Below are positions 261 through 10,587 of a stretch of 64,000 nucleotides of DNA, piece after piece. The stretch comes from Herminiimonas fonticola (lineage in GTDB: Bacteria > Pseudomonadota > Gammaproteobacteria > Burkholderiales > Burkholderiaceae_D). How positions within the stretch are numbered: the first letter of the stretch is position 1; each line of letters opens with the position of its first letter. The notes under the pieces are model-generated. The model searched no databases and was not told where the DNA came from. It saw only the letters and a list, made by a program, of their open reading frames with translations. Position numbers and translations under genes: made by a program. The DNA lies in assembly GCF_003293745.1 (NCBI RefSeq), contig NZ_PTLZ01000005.1:1-64000 (forward strand), in the 5' to 3' direction.

Positions 261-344
261 TGACAGATGACACATGCTTAGATCACGTCAACTCTCGACC
301 ATTCTTTAACTGTTTTCAATTTTTATACTGTGACATATGACACA
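261..344 (+). repeat. Paired TGACA-n-ATGACACA repeats, 70 bp apart
   Basis: TGACAGATGACACA at 261-274 and TGACATATGACACA at 331-344 differ by one base and start exactly 70 bp apart. Each contains a short internal direct repeat of TGACA. A related TGTCACA motif occurs at 417-423 and again at 5146-5152. Such arrays are typical of transposase-binding ends or of operators. They lie upstream of the 513 gene pair. The role is not known. Confidence 0.5.
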
Positions 345-478
345 CACTAACCAAGCCATAGGAATTTTTTAATGGTTTAGCCGCTAAACATTTCAGCTCC
401 TTGATATTGCCGTAAGTGTCACACATTTAAAAACAGGAATGCCCCAAAAAAGTGTTGCGTCAGGATGACCATTCTTTA
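297..478 (+). repeat. Direct repeat GACCATTCTTTA, two copies 170 bp apart
   Basis: Identical 12-mers lie at 297-308 and 467-478. The second copy overlaps the -35 region of the likely promoter of the 513-1769 unit, so the pair could be an operator for autoregulation. The stretch 204-512 contains no convincing gene, only these repeats, the 261/331 repeats and the promoter. Confidence 0.45.
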
Positions 479-497
479 GGTGTTTAGTTAGAAGTTC

Positions 498-503
498 TAT
501 AAT
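498..503 (+). promoter_or_regulatory. -10 box of a probable leaderless promoter
   Basis: A perfect TATAAT lies at 498-503, and a weak -35 (TTTAGG, 475-480) precedes it by 17 bp. Transcription would start about 509-511, directly at the ATG at 513. No Shine-Dalgarno sequence precedes the ATG, which fits a leaderless mRNA. Confidence 0.5.
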
Positions 504-512
504 ATAAACATC

Positions 513-1247
513 ATGGATACCAAAGAGATTCTTCAATTCCACATCGACGTTTTTCGCCCAGAAACCATTCCAATGGCGAGACTCGCTGAATACATGGCCG
601 CGTTAGCTGCTTTGTATGGAAATAATGAACGTGTGCATTTTGACAAAATGCGTACAGGCAGTGCCGTGTTGCAAACAAAAATTGAAGAGTCAGCTATTCA
701 GAAGGTTGATAAGCGATTGCACCTAGTGCATGACATCGATGCGCCTGACGATGTTCAAAAAGCTTATGCGCAAATCAATAGCCTTTTACGTACTGACAAT
801 GCAGTTGGAAAAATAAAACGGGAAAAAGGCGCTGCGATTCTGACTTTTCCTGGTCGAAATACGATCGTTCAAAAAACATACAAGGTTCGCGAAGCGGGCG
901 TATTGGATGGTGTGGTTATCCGAATAGGAGGGAGAGATAGCACCATTCCTGTTTGGCTAGAAGACCATAGCGGAAAAGTTTTTTATTGTGAAGCAAACAA
1001 GGATATGGCCCGCGAATTGATCAAGCATTATCTTGGTAATCCTATTCGAGTTACTGGCCAAGGCGACTGGTTGCGCGGCGAAGATGGTCAATGGAAGTTA
1101 GAAAAATTTAAAATTACTGATTCAGTCGTACTTGATGCAACGCCAATCGAAGAGATATTAAATACGGCTCGTGCTGCAAGTGGGAATGGTTGGAATGAAT
1201 TAGATGACCCAATAAAAGAACATTTATTCATCAGGGGCTCGAATTAA
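513..1247 (+). CDS. Unknown protein, upstream partner of a PIN-domain protein
   Basis: This is a 244-residue soluble protein that I do not recognise. The first half is mostly helical and charged. Residues about 110-215 look beta-rich, with several strand-turn patterns such as VVIRIGGRDSTIPVWLED and IRVTGQGDWLRGEDG, perhaps an OB-fold or similar small barrel. There is no signal peptide and no membrane segment. The stop TAA (1245-1247) directly abuts the ATG of the PIN gene, so the two are surely co-transcribed and probably work together. The position fits the antitoxin or regulator of a PIN toxin, but the protein is much larger than usual VapB antitoxins. Start chosen at the ATG just after the TATAAT box. 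Confidence 0.7.
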   Translation: MDTKEILQFHIDVFRPETIPMARLAEYMAALAALYGNNERVHFDKMRTGSAVLQTKIEESAIQKVDKRLHLVHDIDAPDDVQKAYAQINSLLRTDNAVGKIKREKGAAILTFPGRNTIVQKTYKVREAGVLDGVVIRIGGRDSTIPVWLEDHSGKVFYCEANKDMARELIKHYLGNPIRVTGQGDWLRGEDGQWKLEKFKITDSVVLDATPIEEILNTARAASGNGWNELDDPIKEHLFIRGSN

Positions 1248-1769
1248 ATGGTGGCTTTCGACGCAGGCATTTTAATCAAGCTTCTTGATCCTCGTACCTC
1301 TGAGGAGGATCGAGATAAAATCAGTTACCTCATATCTGTTTTGCAAAAAGATAAGGTAAAAATAATTATCCCTACGCCCGCTGTATCTGAGTTCTATGTG
1401 AAAGCAGATCCAGGAGTATTGGATGCATTCAAAGGGAAAGCTGCGTTCTTAATCGCATCCTTTGATGAAAAGTCTGCAATCGAATGTGCACTTAGTGTTA
1501 GTGCGGCAAAACGATCTGGCCACAAAAAAGCTGGACAACAAGAAGCTACTTGGGCAAAAGTGAAGTTTGATCATCAGATCGTAGCAATAGCCAAAGCTAA
1601 TCAGGCAGACACAATTTATTCGGAAGATCGCGGTTTACGATCGTTTGCCACGGCTCAAGGCCTTCAGACTTTTTCGATAGCAGATTTGCCGGAAAATCCG
1701 GCTTCAGCGCAAAAGAAACTGGAACTAGTCGTCGTTACTGGGCCACTAGCGCAAGAAGCTCGCGGCTAA
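1248..1769 (+). CDS. PIN-domain ribonuclease-like protein
   Basis: This is a 173-residue protein with the four acidic positions expected of a PIN (VapC-like) RNase: Asp5 in MVAFD, Glu48 in PAVSEF, Asp108 in KFDHQIVAIA, and Asp127 in YSEDRGL. PIN domains bind Mg2+ or Mn2+ through these residues and cut RNA; VapC toxins cleave tRNA or rRNA. It is longer than a typical VapC (about 130-140 aa), with an insertion around residues 55-105 and a short C-terminal tail. Its start codon follows the stop of the 244-aa gene with no gap. A toxin role with the upstream protein as partner is inference; a defence or RNA-processing role is equally possible. Confidence 0.8.
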   Translation: MVAFDAGILIKLLDPRTSEEDRDKISYLISVLQKDKVKIIIPTPAVSEFYVKADPGVLDAFKGKAAFLIASFDEKSAIECALSVSAAKRSGHKKAGQQEATWAKVKFDHQIVAIAKANQADTIYSEDRGLRSFATAQGLQTFSIADLPENPASAQKKLELVVVTGPLAQEARG

Positions 1770-2272: not shown

Positions 2273-3034
2273 TCAAGTAATAATCGTCTTGTTAGACTTC
2301 TTTGCAGTTGCGCCTTTAATTTTTCTGAGCGACTCTCCGCTTAACTGCAAAGTATAAGAGCTGTGCGCGATACGATCCATGATTGCGTCGGCGACAGTTT
2401 TATTGTCCAACGCATCATGCCAATGACTCATTGGAAATTGACTGGTGATGATCATAGACCGTATCCCTAACCGGCTATCGACAAGCTCAAGTAAATCGTT
2501 TTGAGCTCGTTTTGAGAACGTCTCAATTCCCCAGTCATCCAATATCAGTAAATCAATTTTCTTTAATTGTTCCAGTCGCAGACTAAACGTGCCTGAAGCG
2601 CGCGCCGAAAGTAGGTTTTCCATTAGCATGGGCACGCGCACGAAATGGGCCGAAAGGCCTAGCCTGCATGCGTAATTAGCGAGAGCACATGCGAGCCATG
2701 TTTTCCCCGTCCCGGTGGGGCCAGTAATGACCAAATTGTTTTGCTGCCTAACCCAGTCAAGATTCGTGAGAGAAAGCATGGTCGATTTATCTAAACCGCG
2801 AGATGATCGATAGTCGATTTCTTCGATGGAAGCCCCTATTGGTAATTTCGCTTTTTTAAGCAACATTTGAAGCCGCTTATTTTCTCGAACAGTGGACTCG
2901 TGATCGACCATACTTCGCACGCGATGTTCAAATGGGAGATCATTCATTGTCGGATTTCCAAGTTGGCGTTCCAACTCTGCGGCCATGCCAAATAGTTTTA
3001 ATGTATTAAGCTGGTCTATCGTGTTTTGCATCAT
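2273..3034 (-). CDS. istB: IS21 helper ATPase (IstB-like)
   Basis: This is a 253-aa AAA+ ATPase, related to DnaC, that loads onto target DNA and activates the IS21 transposase. Walker A is GPTGTGKT at residues 105-112; Walker B is LLILDDW at 162-168. The N-terminal helical domain (1-95) is typical, and the length matches the family (about 250 aa). Its start codon overlaps the istA stop (ATGA), implying translational coupling. The gene looks intact. Confidence 0.93.
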   Translation of the reverse strand: MMQNTIDQLNTLKLFGMAAELERQLGNPTMNDLPFEHRVRSMVDHESTVRENKRLQMLLKKAKLPIGASIEEIDYRSSRGLDKSTMLSLTNLDWVRQQNNLVITGPTGTGKTWLACALANYACRLGLSAHFVRVPMLMENLLSARASGTFSLRLEQLKKIDLLILDDWGIETFSKRAQNDLLELVDSRLGIRSMIITSQFPMSHWHDALDNKTVADAIMDRIAHSSYTLQLSGESLRKIKGATAKKSNKTIIT

Positions 3035-4590
3035 GATTCGGTTTCCTTATCTGTTTGTAAAAGTTCGTTGTAATAATCGGCACCTCTAATATTGCTGTGG
3101 ACGATCTCTTTACTTACTTCTGTATGTTCTTGGCCTAGCAGGCGATCCAAATTTTTCGAAAGAAGATTGCGCAATTCTGGCGTGCCGGTGATGTTGTTCT
3201 TAAACGCATACGCACATCCTTCCTCTAAACGTGATTTGCCATAGTTAGCTAGAAGGACTTTCATGGCTTGCGTAATACGATATCCAAACAGATAGCCTTT
3301 TATTTTTGATAGCTGCGCTTGGAGAAGAAGCACAGTGTTTGGTCCAATCTCAGTTGCCCACTGCAATGCTTCTGGTTCTGACCATTGCAAAACCGCTTTA
3401 TGCGTCGGATGCTGATGCTGACTTAGGGTCGTGCTGCCATCTGGTTCAAAATTGCGTGTATGTGTTGCAATGCACTTTCCCTTTGAGAACAAGTCCAAAG
3501 AGTGACTGGACAAACAATATTCGAGCTCCCGTCCTTTAAGTTGATAAGGCACACTGTAAAAATGTCGTTCTACACATACGTGATAATCATTCGCCGCACG
3601 CACCTTGCCCCAGTCTGAGAAGGCGTAACGTTCTGCCGGCAATGGCGACAATGCCGGTTGTTCTAACTCTAGCCATCTGCTGAAACGTGAACCTGGGAGC
3701 TTTTGAAATGTTTTTCTATTGAGCTTTTCTAAAAGCGGGCTGATTGCTTGATTCATCTCATCGAGTGAAAAGAATTTGCGATTGCGTAGCGAAAATAAGA
3801 TCCAGCGTTGAGCAAGTAAAACGCCAGCCTCTGCTTTGGATTTATCTCGGGGCTCCCGTGGACGGGCAGGAAATGGATGAATGCCGTAGTAGCGGCACAT
3901 GACGTTGTACGACTCGTTGATAACTGGCGCCACGCGATCCGCTTTAGTAACTGCAGATTTGAGATTGTCGGGAACAACAATTCGTGGAACGCCTCCGAAG
4001 AACTCAAACATTCTTGCGTGCGAAGCAATCCAGTCCCTAGATTTTTGGGACCATGTTGCCTCGCAAAAGGTGTAATTTGAACCGCCTAATACACCAACGA
4101 AGATTTGTACTTTCTTCAACTCGCCGGTTTGAGAATCTGTAACACTAAGAGTCGCGCCAGAGTAATCCACATAAACTACTTCTCCATAGACGGCAGTTTG
4201 TCGCATCGAAATCTGTAACGACTTTCTAAATGCGTTATAGCGCCGACAATATTGTGAATAGCCAAAATGCTCTTCTGGCGGGGAAGCATCGATCCATTCT
4301 TGATGCAAGATTGCTAGCGATGCTCCTTTCTGTCCAAGCGCCAAATGAACTGCTGCAAAATCAATGTCTGATGTGATCGTGTGATTAAACGCTTTGACTG
4401 GTGGATACAATTTTTCCTCCAGTAAATCGTCATCTATTTCGTCTGGCAGAGGCCAAGGTAATTGGGCATTAACAAACCTATGCCGAAAGTCCGACACCGT
4501 TTCACGGTTGACGCCTGTATATCTGGACGTTTCGCGATTCGATAACTCTTTAGTAAATATGCATACAAGGACATCGCGAATTTTTCGCAT
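3031..4590 (-). CDS. istA: IS21-family transposase (IstA-like)
   Basis: This is a 519-aa DDE transposase. I start it at the ATG at 4590 (MRKIRDVL) because AGGAG lies about 8 bp upstream; the frame is open for 68 more codons upstream but with no ribosome site. An N-terminal HTH spans about residues 18-35. The catalytic triad is visible in an RNase H-like core: Asp142 (VYVDYSG), Asp208 (VPDNLKS) and Glu254 (KSKAEAG). A Mu-type C-terminal region follows. The protein drives cut-and-paste or circle-mediated transposition with IstB. It seems intact, so the element may be active. Confidence 0.92.
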   Translation of the reverse strand: MRKIRDVLVCIFTKELSNRETSRYTGVNRETVSDFRHRFVNAQLPWPLPDEIDDDLLEEKLYPPVKAFNHTITSDIDFAAVHLALGQKGASLAILHQEWIDASPPEEHFGYSQYCRRYNAFRKSLQISMRQTAVYGEVVYVDYSGATLSVTDSQTGELKKVQIFVGVLGGSNYTFCEATWSQKSRDWIASHARMFEFFGGVPRIVVPDNLKSAVTKADRVAPVINESYNVMCRYYGIHPFPARPREPRDKSKAEAGVLLAQRWILFSLRNRKFFSLDEMNQAISPLLEKLNRKTFQKLPGSRFSRWLELEQPALSPLPAERYAFSDWGKVRAANDYHVCVERHFYSVPYQLKGRELEYCLSSHSLDLFSKGKCIATHTRNFEPDGSTTLSQHQHPTHKAVLQWSEPEALQWATEIGPNTVLLLQAQLSKIKGYLFGYRITQAMKVLLANYGKSRLEEGCAYAFKNNITGTPELRNLLSKNLDRLLGQEHTEVSKEIVHSNIRGADYYNELLQTDKETES

Positions 4591-4771
4591 GTCAGTTCTC
4601 CTATTGACCATAGCAATATGCTTAGCACCGCCCAGGCGGGCATTTTCATTAAGCGTCGAGTGGCGAAATCGCGCACGCAACAAGGCACTTCGATGAGATC
4701 GAAGTATTGACAGGGAATATGGGAAGGGAGATACTGAGCTCGGATCGCTTCTAGTTATCCAAAGCTGTACA

Positions 4772-4801
4772 AAAGGCTGTGAGTTGATGCTCACAGCCTT
4801 T
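4772..4801 (-). terminator. Rho-independent-like terminator
   Basis: Twelve-bp perfect arms (4772-4783 and 4790-4801) enclose a 6-nt loop, with TTTT following on the minus strand. It lies 29 bp past the stop of the 4830 gene. A second small palindrome (TCTGCCT-CCC-AGGCAGA, 4809-4825) precedes it. Confidence 0.7.
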
Positions 4802-4829: not shown

Positions 4830-5123
4830 TCATGACGATTCTCCCTCCGTCAGCGTAGGCAAGACACTGAGCGTTGCGCGTTCGCGTTGGGCCGCAAGCC
4901 AGACAGCAATATCTTTCACTAACGCGAATTTTCCCCTGCGATTCTCAATATCGAATATCGGTACTGGCACAGTTTTTCTTGATATCGCTTGCCGAAACGC
5001 TTCCTTAGACGCGTAACCCAAGGTGATGCGTAAATTGTCATTGGAAACCATAGGCCCAAAGCGACTCGTTAGCTCTCGCTCAAGCAGCGTTGCCAATGGC
5101 TCATCAAATTTAAATTCAGTCAT
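4830..5123 (-). CDS. Small helix-turn-helix-like DNA-binding protein
   Basis: This is a 97-aa soluble protein. The middle part (about residues 28-75) reads like an excisionase/MerR-type winged helix: a strand-helix run (NLRITLGYASKEAFRQAIS), then a basic wing-like turn (RRGKFALVKDIAVWLAAQ). Such small proteins often regulate mobile-element genes or act as directionality factors. AAGG precedes the ATG. The gene has its own terminator at 4772-4801, so it is not co-transcribed with istA. I do not recognise a precise family; function is inferred from pattern only. Confidence 0.6.
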   Translation of the reverse strand: MTEFKFDEPLATLLERELTSRFGPMVSNDNLRITLGYASKEAFRQAISRKTVPVPIFDIENRRGKFALVKDIAVWLAAQRERATLSVLPTLTEGESS

Positions 5124-6287: not shown

Positions 6288-6487
6288 CTCACATTAGCGA
6301 AGATACTTCGCCAGTTGATTTTGGCCCCCTTTATTAACGTTCGCGATTCAACTAAATCAGTTTGATCCCAAATGAAGTCACTAAATATGGAAATTCTGCC
6401 GACTGCAGCGTCCGCGGGTACAAGTCTGCTAACGATCTTTAGCTCAAAGAACGTATTTATCTGCGAATAGTTGGCGTTATTCATCAC
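6275..6487 (-). pseudogene. Truncated third ORF of the recombinase module
   Basis: About 70 codons are open, starting with GTG-ATG (6482-6487) that overlaps the TGA of the 652-aa recombinase gene by 4 bp, so translation is coupled. The peptide is not recognisable. The frame ends in the fourth unit of the 24-bp repeat block, so the gene seems to have lost its 3' part. Tandem tyrosine-recombinase modules are often accompanied by a third small protein, and this may be its remnant (inference). Confidence 0.5.
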
Positions 6488-8442
6488 GCTTCTCTTAAAT
6501 GAGGAGAGACATAAAACGGCGTTTCTTCAGCTTGAATATTTGCCCATTCGAGAGTTCTGCTTGGAAAGCGCGGAAGAATGGATTTTGTAATTGCAGAATA
6601 AGGAAGATCAAATTTATTACTCCAATCGATTGGAGTAAGCAGTTTCCGTTGCTGCTCCATGAACAATTTGAACTTCACCAGACGCGGCAAGATTCGACTT
6701 GTCCAAAGCGCATTTTCACAACTAAAGCATTGCCAAGGATCACTGCACGGCGTCTCGGGTATGCCACCAGGCTTGTTATAGAAGTCACGGCAACTAGCTA
6801 TAAATACGTCTTGCTCTCCCGAAAGAATCGAAACAATTTTTTCCTCTGATTCGGAAAGTTGTCTAGCTAGCGCAGCGATTTCTCCTTCTGTTTCGACGTT
6901 CTTTATAACGACTATTCCTCGGGCCTCTTGTACGACCTTATCTTGCGCGATGCGTATCGTTTGGTTGTGAATATGATGCGTGGCATCATTTGTCAGATAA
7001 TGAAAAGCTGTCGTATTTAAAGCTTGCTTACCATGATGTTTTAACGTCTTCTTACTAACGTTTGCCAAATTTCCACTTTTCAAATATGCATTTGTTGCGA
7101 CTGTTTTCCGTGTCTGCCTGAAACCAAATTTCAAAAAATCGCCATTCCGATCGCGTAGATCATGTGCTTCCATGAAACCAATAAAAATCAGGGGCCCTTG
7201 GATTAATCCGTTAGAAAAATACATTGTTGCATCGTATGTCAAAGCGGCGGCTTGTCCCAAGTACGGCCAGCCGGGTCCAGCTTTTCGGTGTGCTAGCCAC
7301 AACTGATTTTTTATATCGTCGCTGGCGAATGGGACGAGTGACTCGGTCATTTTTAGTACCAACTTGATTAGGGCAATCGGTGAAGTGCTACCTCGATTAG
7401 AAAATGAGATCTTCATTTGCTCATGACTACCGCGGTGCTTTTTGAACTCGACTATCGTTTTTCCTGCTTCTTCACCATGAAGGCAATCACGCGTCAAAGT
7501 CAACAATGACTCTGCATTTAGACCACTCTTAATAGAAAGCAAAATCATAAACGGCACCAAATCTTTATAACTTGGGTATAGATGAGAGATTAGTTCCGAA
7601 GGAGTATTAAAAGTACAGTTATCAGAGTCAGCCCATCGATTTCGCAAATAGCGTGTTAACAGACAGTTTTGCGCCGAGGAGCGCGAAGGAAACTGACCCT
7701 TTAAAACATGGACCAAATACCAAAGATCGTTAGCTTTACTATTCCAGCCGGTGGTAAATATAGATTTTTTATTCCACGGCTGCTTCAAATGACCAACTAA
7801 GCGCGGATCCTGTCCCTCAGCTAGTAATGCTTTTCCTAACGCCAGCCGCCCAAGAACATCTGATATTTCTTTTTTCGCTGCATCAATAAGCCTCACTTGT
7901 TCGTCATGGGTATAGGGTTGAACTGCGCAGATAGTGGCGTCACTACGCCTAAGCGACTTCGAAGGTATCTCCAGTTCGCTTGGCACAGAGCCTGAGACTG
8001 GCGAATCCTCTCCTTGCAATATTTTCATTAATTTTGCTATGCAAAGATAACTTCTCCCGGCGGTAGTATTTCCATAATTAGAGTGCAACCATTTTCTAAA
8101 GTCGATCAATGTCTCCCGACTAAGATCTTTAACACTCGTTTCCTTTGGGTTCCAATCTGTTTTTATCTCATCTAGATATCTAACCAATCGATGTAGAGAA
8201 TCACGCTTTTGCCGTACCACTTCAAAATGTTTGCCGGGTGAATTAATAACTTCCCCACTCCAAAGGGCACTCATTAATGGGCCAAATAATTTCGGCCTCG
8301 AAGAACACTTTTGAAAAGACAGCCAGCTACCTTCTCGCACTACTCCTGTTAAATCCCATTTCCAAGGCATTATTGACGGCATTGAAAACGTCTCATTGCA
8401 CTGAACATCATCTGCCGTAAATGGATTATTTCTAGCTTTCAT
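6484..8442 (-). CDS. Large tyrosine-recombinase-like protein with degenerate active site
   Basis: This is a 652-aa protein. An N-terminal SAM-like DNA-binding part lies around residues 75-145. The C-terminal catalytic fold is recognisable: box I (SGLNAESLLTLT, 306-317) has Asn309 where tyrosine recombinases have Arg. Box II keeps FRQTRKTVAT (441-450), His470 in LKHHG, and an H-Y pair at 481-482 where the nucleophile is expected. A Cys cluster (C566, C572, C575) near the C-terminus may bind zinc. The gene overlaps the preceding recombinase by 4 bp and the following ORF by 3-4 bp. Loss of the box I Arg suggests it is an accessory, non-catalytic or altered recombinase that works with the 412-aa partner. 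Confidence 0.8.
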   Translation of the reverse strand: MKARNNPFTADDVQCNETFSMPSIMPWKWDLTGVVREGSWLSFQKCSSRPKLFGPLMSALWSGEVINSPGKHFEVVRQKRDSLHRLVRYLDEIKTDWNPKETSVKDLSRETLIDFRKWLHSNYGNTTAGRSYLCIAKLMKILQGEDSPVSGSVPSELEIPSKSLRRSDATICAVQPYTHDEQVRLIDAAKKEISDVLGRLALGKALLAEGQDPRLVGHLKQPWNKKSIFTTGWNSKANDLWYLVHVLKGQFPSRSSAQNCLLTRYLRNRWADSDNCTFNTPSELISHLYPSYKDLVPFMILLSIKSGLNAESLLTLTRDCLHGEEAGKTIVEFKKHRGSHEQMKISFSNRGSTSPIALIKLVLKMTESLVPFASDDIKNQLWLAHRKAGPGWPYLGQAAALTYDATMYFSNGLIQGPLIFIGFMEAHDLRDRNGDFLKFGFRQTRKTVATNAYLKSGNLANVSKKTLKHHGKQALNTTAFHYLTNDATHHIHNQTIRIAQDKVVQEARGIVVIKNVETEGEIAALARQLSESEEKIVSILSGEQDVFIASCRDFYNKPGGIPETPCSDPWQCFSCENALWTSRILPRLVKFKLFMEQQRKLLTPIDWSNKFDLPYSAITKSILPRFPSRTLEWANIQAEETPFYVSPHLREA

Positions 8443-9677
8443 TCCGTCTGTTCTCCGGACAATGCCCTCTCGTCAATTTCGAACCCTTCACAATCATTGG
8501 AGATGTCAATCATGTCGGTTATTTCATCAACATAATCGAGATAGATAAATGTGGTCATTACGGATGCGTGGCCCATCAACCGTGAGAGCACGCGCAATGG
8601 ATCGTAAACCATTCTTTTATACGCTTCGCTTCTTGAATGAATAGGCACAGTTTGCCTAGCCAACATGTGTCGAATCATCCCGGAAAGCGTATAGATGGCA
8701 TAACTGTGACGCAGCATATGGGGGTGCGCCTTAAAACTAAATCCGCTACCGTCGCCAGCGACCCGCATCATCTTGTAGAACGCACTGTAGGTCGCGGGCC
8801 GTCCCAATGAAGTCAGGAATAAAAAATCTTCGTCATTGATATCAGCACTTCTCTTTAAACGACTGGCCCTTCTCCGATTAATTGCATCAGCGCGATCCCA
8901 TTCGATGTAGCGCCGCACATCTCTTAACCAGCTTTTTGGCACACGCACCGTACGCTCTTTATTACCCTTCCCAAGCACAGTTAGCGGGCATGTATTGAGG
9001 TCTTTGAAAAAAATGCTATCTGGATCTGGGAGCATCGACAGTTTGATGGTCGCTGCCTCCTGAGCACGTAGTCCGGTCCGAAATAAAAGTCTAACGAAAA
9101 GAGCATTTCGAAGCCCTTCTTTTGTAGCCATAATCCTCGGAAGATATATTTCCAGGAAATCATGTTCGGTCATGTACTTAATATCTTTCCTGCGAGTCCT
9201 TTCTTTGAGATTCGTTGAGAGAATATGGGAAGTCTGGTTTGGATAAGGCCCTGGCGACAGCTTTGTGGTGTAGTCGAAAGGAACATACTTCAAATGCCCT
9301 TCTTGTTTCGCCCACTCATAAAAACGCCTCAATGCAGCAGCGAAAACATTCCATGAACTAGATGAAATTTGTAAAGAACCAGGTTGAATTCTTCGTAAGC
9401 GGTAATAAACCATCCAATCCTCTGACGAGGCATTTCGCCAGGTTTTCTCTCGTTTAATCAAAAATCGAAAAAACAAGCTCAGTTGCTCCGCATAAGCACG
9501 CCATGTATTTGGACTAGGAGAACCAGGAGCCGCAAGAGACCTTAAAAAACTGTTAAGAACTGCGTCGCATTGCCAATTTAGATCTACTGTGAAAGGCTGT
9601 TTATCTACTAATCCAAGTTGTTCAACTAGGTGCGACAAATGCGGAGTCCGGTCTTGCTTCAAATAATAAATATCCAA
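8439..9677 (-). CDS. Tyrosine recombinase / integrase
   Basis: This is a 412-aa protein with a complete active site: Arg204 (RTGLRAQEA), Lys237 (LGKGNK), His320-x2-Arg323 (HPHMLRHSY), His370 (LMGH) and Tyr379. The core-binding domain lies at about 35-125. It starts at TTG 9675-9677, with AAGGA 8 bp upstream; no ATG is available in a sensible place. It is the first gene of a coupled module and lies about 100 bp from the island's right end, as expected for the enzyme that integrated the island. It cuts and rejoins DNA at the attachment site through a 3'-phosphotyrosine intermediate. Confidence 0.92.
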   Translation of the reverse strand: MDIYYLKQDRTPHLSHLVEQLGLVDKQPFTVDLNWQCDAVLNSFLRSLAAPGSPSPNTWRAYAEQLSLFFRFLIKREKTWRNASSEDWMVYYRLRRIQPGSLQISSSSWNVFAAALRRFYEWAKQEGHLKYVPFDYTTKLSPGPYPNQTSHILSTNLKERTRRKDIKYMTEHDFLEIYLPRIMATKEGLRNALFVRLLFRTGLRAQEAATIKLSMLPDPDSIFFKDLNTCPLTVLGKGNKERTVRVPKSWLRDVRRYIEWDRADAINRRRASRLKRSADINDEDFLFLTSLGRPATYSAFYKMMRVAGDGSGFSFKAHPHMLRHSYAIYTLSGMIRHMLARQTVPIHSRSEAYKRMVYDPLRVLSRLMGHASVMTTFIYLDYVDEITDMIDISNDCEGFEIDERALSGEQTE

Positions 9678-9783: not shown

Positions 9784-10587
9784 GCATGGTTCCTGATGTT
9801 TGGTTCGTTTGCGATGCTGGGTGCCAAAGTGGTTGGCATTCCGCGTCTGTCCGATGGACCCGATATCGCCAAGCTGGCCGAGCTGGCTGCATTGCACCGG
9901 CCAAAATTATTCGTCATCAATTCTGTCCTGCACAATCCAACCTCGACTTCGCTATCGGCAGCAAAGGCATTTCAGGTATTGAAAATTGCCGAGCAATACA
10001 ATTTCATGATTGTCGAAGACGATATTTATTGCGATATGCATCCGGGCACTACGGTGCAATCAGCGACACGCATCGCCGCGCTGGATCAGTTGAATCGCGT
10101 GATTTATCTCGGTGGATTTTCCAAAACGCTGGCGGCCAATTTACGCGTCGGCTTCATCGCCACGTCGCACGATATCGCACGGGACCTGGCCGATCGCAAG
10201 ATGCTGACCGCGTTGACTACGACCGAAGTCACCGAACGCGTGGTCTACAAGGTTTTGTCCGAAGGGCATTACCGCAAACACAGCGACCGTCTGCGCAGCA
10301 AGCTGGATGCAGTGCGCGACAAAACGATACGACAAATGGAACGCATAGGTGCCAGGATCAATTTCAACACGCCAGCCGGCATGTTCATCTGGACCGACAT
10401 GGGTTGCGACACCAATCTATTGACTGAAAAAGCCATGGCCGAAGGCTATCTGCTGGCGCCCGGCAGTCTGTTCTCGCCTAACCAGCTACCATCAACGAAT
10501 ATGCGTTTCAACGTCGCGGCGATGGGCGATCCCGGCCTCTTGCGCTTTTTGGAGCGAACTATGGACCTGGTGCGCAGCAAGACTTGA
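9784..10587 (+). pseudogene. MocR/GntR-type aminotransferase, 3' fragment
   Basis: The frame is open from 9769, but similarity begins at Ala-Trp-Phe-Leu (9784). What remains is about 267 residues of a fold type I aminotransferase domain: HNPTST (substrate/PLP contact), VEDDIYCD (PLP-pyridine Asp), and GGFSKTL with the PLP-binding Lys. A MocR regulator also needs an N-terminal winged helix and the first third of the enzyme domain, about 200 residues, which are missing here. The break coincides with the right end of the recombinase-bearing island. The fragment could still be translated from ATG 9796 or 9814 but should not be a working regulator. Confidence 0.8.

Follow-up and report, generated by a model that had tools for sequence, protein, structure and literature searches.

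What do two abutting genes near the start of a Herminiimonas fonticola contig do, one encoding a predicted PIN-domain nuclease and the other a larger upstream partner? We analyzed a stretch of 64,000 nucleotides, hereafter the window, in which an earlier note had proposed a new toxin-antitoxin or defense pair with a probably leaderless mRNA. Both open reading frames were recovered as that note had described them: the stop codon TAA of the first gene (1245-1247) is followed, with no spare base, by the ATG of the second (from 1248), and the PIN protein carries four acidic residues. Altogether, the proposal of a toxin-antitoxin or defense pair is partly supported; comparative evidence backs it well without proving it. 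With slightly more confidence than doubt, we read the two genes as a lysogen-expressed, toxin-antitoxin-like immunity module directed against superinfecting phages. The features of the locus are as follows.

513-1247, plus strand: gene A, encoding the 244-aa partner protein; match to phrog_19868 (PHROGs, E 4.3e-57)
1248-1769, plus strand: gene P, encoding a predicted 173-aa PIN-domain nuclease with a VapC-like fold; match to phrog_21691 (PHROGs, E 4.5e-31)
498-503, plus strand: exact TATAAT, a putative -10 element ending 9 nt before the ATG of gene A
467-485, plus strand: direct repeat, 89% identical to 297-315, which spans the putative -35 region
260-274 and 330-344, plus strand: two 15-nt direct repeats upstream of gene A, possible operators

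The pair had been placed in an island among orphan genes, a description that was partly right. It is surrounded by the remnant of a metal transporter, an IS21-like element, and two tyrosine-recombinase-type genes; the IS21 and transporter names were given by eye, and a strong Pfam match was obtained for the 412-aa recombinase only. The contig begins within a gene remnant (1-201), by eye the C-terminal part of a cation-efflux transporter, and contig C2 holds two further stretches with 84% identity to it. Directly after the A-P pair, the minus strand carries what are by eye istB and istA of the IS21-like element (2273-4794), and a 97-aa protein with a sub-threshold match to the pyocin activator PrtN (E 0.00034) is encoded at 4830-5123, also on the minus strand. 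At 6484-9677 (minus strand), the gene for the 412-aa tyrosine recombinase (Pfam Phage_integrase, 5.8e-17) overlaps by 4 nt that for a 652-aa protein with merely a weak integrase N-domain match, a layout that we take to resemble Tn554-type TnpA/TnpB. Directly beyond the recombinase genes, 9796-10587 holds by eye the C-terminal part of an aminotransferase-type regulator, and the recombinase element looks as if it had been inserted into that gene.

Of the argument for a leaderless mRNA, the observations on the window copy stand. An exact TATAAT at 4 to 11 nt before the start occurred in 0.74% of base shuffles of 202-512, and no Shine-Dalgarno-like motif was found upstream of gene A of the window. 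As a -35 region, TTTAGG at 475-480 (17-nt spacer, 3/6 positions by eye) is weak, and a promoter scan reported nothing at the TATAAT at 498-503. Among relatives, a 5-of-6 match to TATAAT 4 to 11 nt before the start was present at 6/60 loci versus 2.1 expected, a value reached in 1.9% of shuffles, and a Shine-Dalgarno-like motif was present in 34/61 rows by raw count; the starts behind the leaderless count were set by script and are unreliable in rows L048, L053, and L058, in which a codon other than a start codon was picked, and in L151 and L152, which are alike. Judged from these upstream regions, a leaderless mRNA is plausible for the window copy and some members, but it is not a trait of the family. 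The repeats at 260-344, and those at 297-315 and 467-485, may be operators.

Predicted folds of the two proteins

Four acidic codons and one domain define the parts of the pair discussed below.

1260-1262, 1389-1391, 1569-1571, and 1626-1628, plus strand: codons of the acidic residues D5, E48, D108, and D127 of P, from the sequence and the alignment
885-1145, plus strand: OB-fold domain of A (residues 125-211), best Z 9.7 (6cqm_F, rmsd 3.5, 84 aligned)

Neither window protein matched a Pfam or NCBIfam family above the cut-off, and PADLOC gave weak matches only for P of the window (E 0.015 or more). In particular, this P lies under every Pfam PIN cut-off (PIN_4, 15.8 versus 21.9 bits needed); the E. 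coli P lies over it (40.8 versus 23.6 bits), and 50/59 aligned P members matched the Pfam PIN family PF01850 at E up to 0.05. In the same 59-member alignment, window included, the active-site acidic residues of the PIN superfamily are present almost without exception (D5, D108, and D127 in 59/59, E48 in 58/59). The AlphaFold2 model of P (mean pLDDT 92.8, pTM 0.84) has a VapC-like PIN fold: several VapC structures were among its best Foldseek matches in the PDB (best E 2.7e-5, TMt about 0.7), and it also resembles other PIN proteins, including RNA-free RNase P. From fold and residues, P is most likely an RNase.

The AlphaFold2 model of A (mean pLDDT 92.6, pTM 0.66) predicts an alpha/beta N-terminal domain (about residues 1 to 115) followed by an OB fold (about residues 125 to 211), whose nearest structures are SSB and PriB. 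The partner had been called beta-rich from its sequence, and the structure prediction agrees, with an OB barrel in the second half of the protein. Moreover, many phage SSBs were included among the structural matches of A in BFVD. The match lists for A are almost confined to the OB part, and nothing can be concluded from other folds being missing there. No Pfam family was common to at least 2 of 70 A members at E up to 0.05, and a sequence-profile search of solved structures returned nothing useful for A or P. Going by the predicted fold, nucleic-acid binding by the OB domain of A is probable.

Linkage, loss, and spread of the pair

Relatives were collected with each gene as bait. Scans with the A profile gave 72 loci, 64 on genome contigs and 8 viral. 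The P-bait set comprised 61 loci, of which 16 were from genomes (same-genome repeats removed by hand) and 45 were from viral contigs scanned with two P profiles (10 and 35 loci); the genome searches for P gave 5/369 at the class level and 10/398 at the phylum level, with the window's own genome and weak matches counted in. The two sets overlap in some viral contigs. Among the A-bait loci, A and P were both intact in 56, A was intact with P broken or missing in 9, A was partial in 4, and 3 lay at a contig edge. The P-bait loci held 41 distinct intact P genes, 15 duplicates, 4 weak PIN matches, and 1 split P. All 41 distinct intact P genes, the window's among them, had an intact A directly upstream, and the co-conservation of the two genes that the earlier note had made a test of its proposal is thereby borne out. 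Furthermore, an order-level search of 399 genomes found A in 4, all of which also had P, together with one weak partial P match without A. Across 97 intact pairs (56 A-bait and 41 P-bait, on partly identical contigs), the first model codon of P lay between -14 and +21 nt relative to where A ends.

Loss was one-sided: P was broken or missing in 9/65 loci with intact A, versus 0/41 for the reverse (Fisher P = 0.012). Left out of the 41 were the weak PIN matches L088, L092, L093, and L103, none of which has A beside it and which scored 14 to 22 bits versus 60 or more in family members; if these four were counted as P without A, the asymmetry would vanish. The L088 match is limited to the first third of phrog_21691 (E 2.2e-7), and L088 could be the remnant of a P without A. 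As read, the nine broken or missing P genes comprise an internal deletion (L012), frameshift-type breaks (L024, L050, and L082), truncation or loss (L029, L030, L045, and L046), and an insertion (L078), with L024 and L030 being near relatives. At L078, an HNH-endonuclease-like sequence (about 8742-9371) follows the cut-short start of the PIN gene, and gene A is intact. Outside these nine, P is split on the Sinorhizobium K101 and C101 plasmids and in Kingella, and the M103 P matched in one piece. Some of the nine breaks may be errors of draft-genome assembly, which could account for part of the asymmetry, itself a modest one. Nonetheless, an intact P that always comes with A, and an A that sometimes comes without P, form the pattern expected if P is harmful without A. 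As far as these sequences indicate, the loss pattern of the pair is toxin-antitoxin-like.

Both proteins are also under purifying selection in the branch of E. coli and related viral contigs, where dN/dS was 0.05 to 0.09 for A (9 comparisons) and 0.03 to 0.19 for P (12 comparisons); the pairs compared span pS values of 0.05 to 0.72, several of them near-duplicate or near saturation, and the window's own branch is too diverged for such estimates. In addition, A and P distances were correlated (r = 0.75, 57 loci), as joint inheritance would give.

The main rival reading explains one-sided loss without toxin-antitoxin logic, through a defense complex in which P would be an effector, harmless and useless alone, that requires A as its sensor or targeting subunit. 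When P is lost, A would persist as a relic; when A is lost, the useless P would soon be deleted. Strict A-P linkage suits such a complex, an OB fold could target nucleic acid, and another PIN pair, DS-5, behaves in this way according to the available text of its report (PMC13092281). However, a useless P should appear alone for a while, as A does, and it did so in 0/41 cases. The strong constraint on P where it was compared also speaks against the complex, though a working complex would fit that too. We consider this reading unlikely, while ranking it first among the alternatives to a toxin-antitoxin-like immunity module.

By record title, the carriers belong to Pseudomonadota and Acidobacteriota, with one Planctomycetota bin. 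On the A tree, the Acidobacteriota rows require five changes, versus 8.5 with shuffled labels, indicating that the A family shows some clustering by host and some mixing; this pattern suggests transfer without proving it. The A-P pair is a widespread, patchy, phage-borne family that is not confined to the window.

Genomic settings and proposed role

Two Pseudomonas phages, Ostro and Pacha_bin_1, carry the pair immediately behind cI and on its strand; gene A of Pacha_bin_1 carries another annotation, yet it gave the same match. The place after cI is occupied in phage lambda by the exclusion genes rexAB. In E. coli, a copy with 99% identity or more to the query was present in 32/5,426 complete genomes, and a second query likewise gave 32 genomes, the two lists being compared by number only; A is annotated there as "hypothetical protein" and P as "PIN domain-containing protein." In the three P22-like E. 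coli prophages examined, the pair directly follows, in the same direction, an Arc-family mnt homologue with 80 to 82% identity to P22 Mnt. The opposite flank carries arc and ant homologues, and beyond the pair a homologue of the gene 16 C-terminal part was found in one of these prophages. In P22 itself, the corresponding slot after mnt holds sieA, whose product excludes superinfecting phages (PMC10883804, available text).

Other settings are more varied. On a Kingella potus plasmid record, the pair, whose P is split, sits in a phage-like region and follows a LexA-family regulator downstream; further carriers are plasmids of Methylobacterium, Cupriavidus, and Pleomorphomonas and large Sinorhizobium plasmids. 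For some relatives, the plasmid or island stretch seen shows no signs of a phage; the island that holds the window copy is of this kind.

Genes were called by a simple script, and the scans covered 83/104 of the upstream neighbors called, 76/98 of the downstream neighbors, and 74/76 of the far controls. Direct upstream neighbors (n = 83) included HTH_3 (8) and Peptidase_S24 (7) proteins and restriction enzymes of the MmeI type (3) and Mrr type (2). An IS1595-type transposase was found in 8/83, equal to the HTH_3 count. Downstream, no family occurred in more than 3/76. At E up to 1e-10, the upstream PADLOC matches were type IIG (3), mad2 (3), type IV (2), DrmMI (2), PDC-S02 (2), HmaC (1), and DUF499 (1), these counts being of models, not proteins, and some of these matches surely falling on the same proteins. 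Among the families shown downstream were type IIG (2) and DruA, DruE, type IV, DrmMI, IetA, and three candidate models (1 each). The 74 far-control genes, at least 5 kb away, gave one BrxL. There is, then, a trend of the pair's direct neighbors towards defense genes. The clustering with defense genes that the earlier note had proposed to check is seen in part: restriction, Druantia, and other PADLOC models adjoin the pair at times, but the majority of direct neighbors are neither repressors nor defense genes.

These settings bear on two further readings. Presence on plasmids and in islands would suit an ordinary addiction pair that maintains the plasmid or island and has no anti-phage role, and the loss pattern is compatible with it. 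However, two phage types that are unrelated to each other carry the pair in a slot beside a lysogeny repressor, in one case the sieA exclusion slot, and an integrated prophage would presumably profit little from addiction; we regard such a role as quite improbable. Least probable of all is a pair for the phage's own nucleic-acid processing (RNA maturation or lysogeny regulation), neither toxin nor defense: the SSB/PriB-like OB fold, the many phage SSBs among the BFVD matches, and the repressors among the neighbors are in its favor, but a core function should not be optional, and the pair is patchy (32/5,426 E. coli genomes) and also occurs outside phages.

A toxin-antitoxin-like immunity module against superinfecting phages would work as follows. 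Temperate phages, plasmids, and islands would spread it. A, translated first, would bind P and hold it inactive, as the linkage, the gene order, and the one-sided loss of P suggest, and its OB fold, to go by the fold, may sense foreign nucleic acid or position P on its substrate. The lysogen would express the pair with or beside the immunity repressor, cI or Mnt. When another phage infects, the pair would be freed or switched on, and P would then halt the growth of the infected cell or cut the invader's transcripts. If this is true, it gives a function to two phage families of unknown role (phrog_19868 and phrog_21691), explains the content of some prophage exclusion slots beside cI and mnt, and adds a PIN system in which an OB-fold protein takes the place of a small DNA-binding antitoxin. 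Since intact copies exist in E. coli prophages, such as those of record NZ_CP117013.1, the idea is directly testable in laboratory E. coli with standard phage panels.

A more specific version, which we put forward tentatively, is that A might be a guard antitoxin that uses its OB fold to recognize single-stranded nucleic acid of a phage or an SSB-coated intermediate, upon which the PIN nuclease would be released and the infection aborted. If true, it would constitute a previously undescribed class of lysogen-expressed immunity that unites sensing and neutralization in one protein and is common to unrelated temperate phages, in Pseudomonadota, Acidobacteriota, and beyond.

Comparison with known systems

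No description of the pair was found in titles and abstracts among the literature matches listed, a search that did not cover Brenes and Laub 2025. The PHROG identifiers and two E. coli protein accessions gave no paper mentions, no relevant literature was found for phages Ostro and Pacha, and the available text of the SieA paper (PMC10883804) mentions neither PIN nor toxin.

In its place in the genome, the pair resembles known exclusion genes. It shares with lambda RexAB the slot directly after cI, and with P22 SieA the slot downstream of mnt, as shown against P22; in contrast to P22, no SieA homologue or match was found in the three E. coli prophage stretches examined.

DS-5, a system from DefensePredictor, is likewise a two-protein PIN defense system of E. 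coli; it consists of a PIN protein and a protein with a DUF5830/AcrIF4 domain, and removal of the partner freed no toxic nuclease (PMC13092281, available text). None of 70 A proteins matched DUF5830 at E up to 0.05, the E. coli, L134, and L137 copies of A gave no match even at E up to 10, and the family was found in 0/200 genomes searched. An hhalign comparison of the A profile with one AcrIF4 sequence, whose identity was confirmed, showed no similarity (probability 0.2%). Identity of the pair with DS-5, which was compared by domain description and not by sequence, therefore has no support.

Another candidate came from structure. The best viral model for A was a DUF6575 protein (E 9.2e-10, 257 columns, TM 0.40, 11% identity), and DUF6575 has been reported in an experimentally selected E. 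coli defense system (PMC9519451, available text). However, the DUF6575 Pfam family PF20215 was matched by 0/70 A members at E up to 0.05, and its model gave two weak or partial genomic matches, the first of which sits in a 617-aa frame that is by eye an ImmA/IrrE-type peptidase protein. Given the weak structural match and these Pfam results, kinship of A with DUF6575 was dropped.

The closest likeness in layout is to VapBC, which also has the partner gene first and a small PIN nuclease with four acidic residues second. On the antitoxin side, the two differ: the known PIN-associated antitoxins are mostly small DNA-binding proteins (PMC2701414, available text), whereas A has 244 aa and an OB fold. 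A fits no small DNA-binding VapB family, and membership in VapBC was rejected on this ground; the view of the earlier note that the partner is unlike a usual antitoxin is upheld. Its suggestion that the pair is new holds for the partner side, while both genes are already annotated in E. coli and catalogued in PHROGs as phage families with function listed as unknown. The novelty of the pair is its partner, a large OB-fold protein that replaces the small DNA-binding antitoxin.
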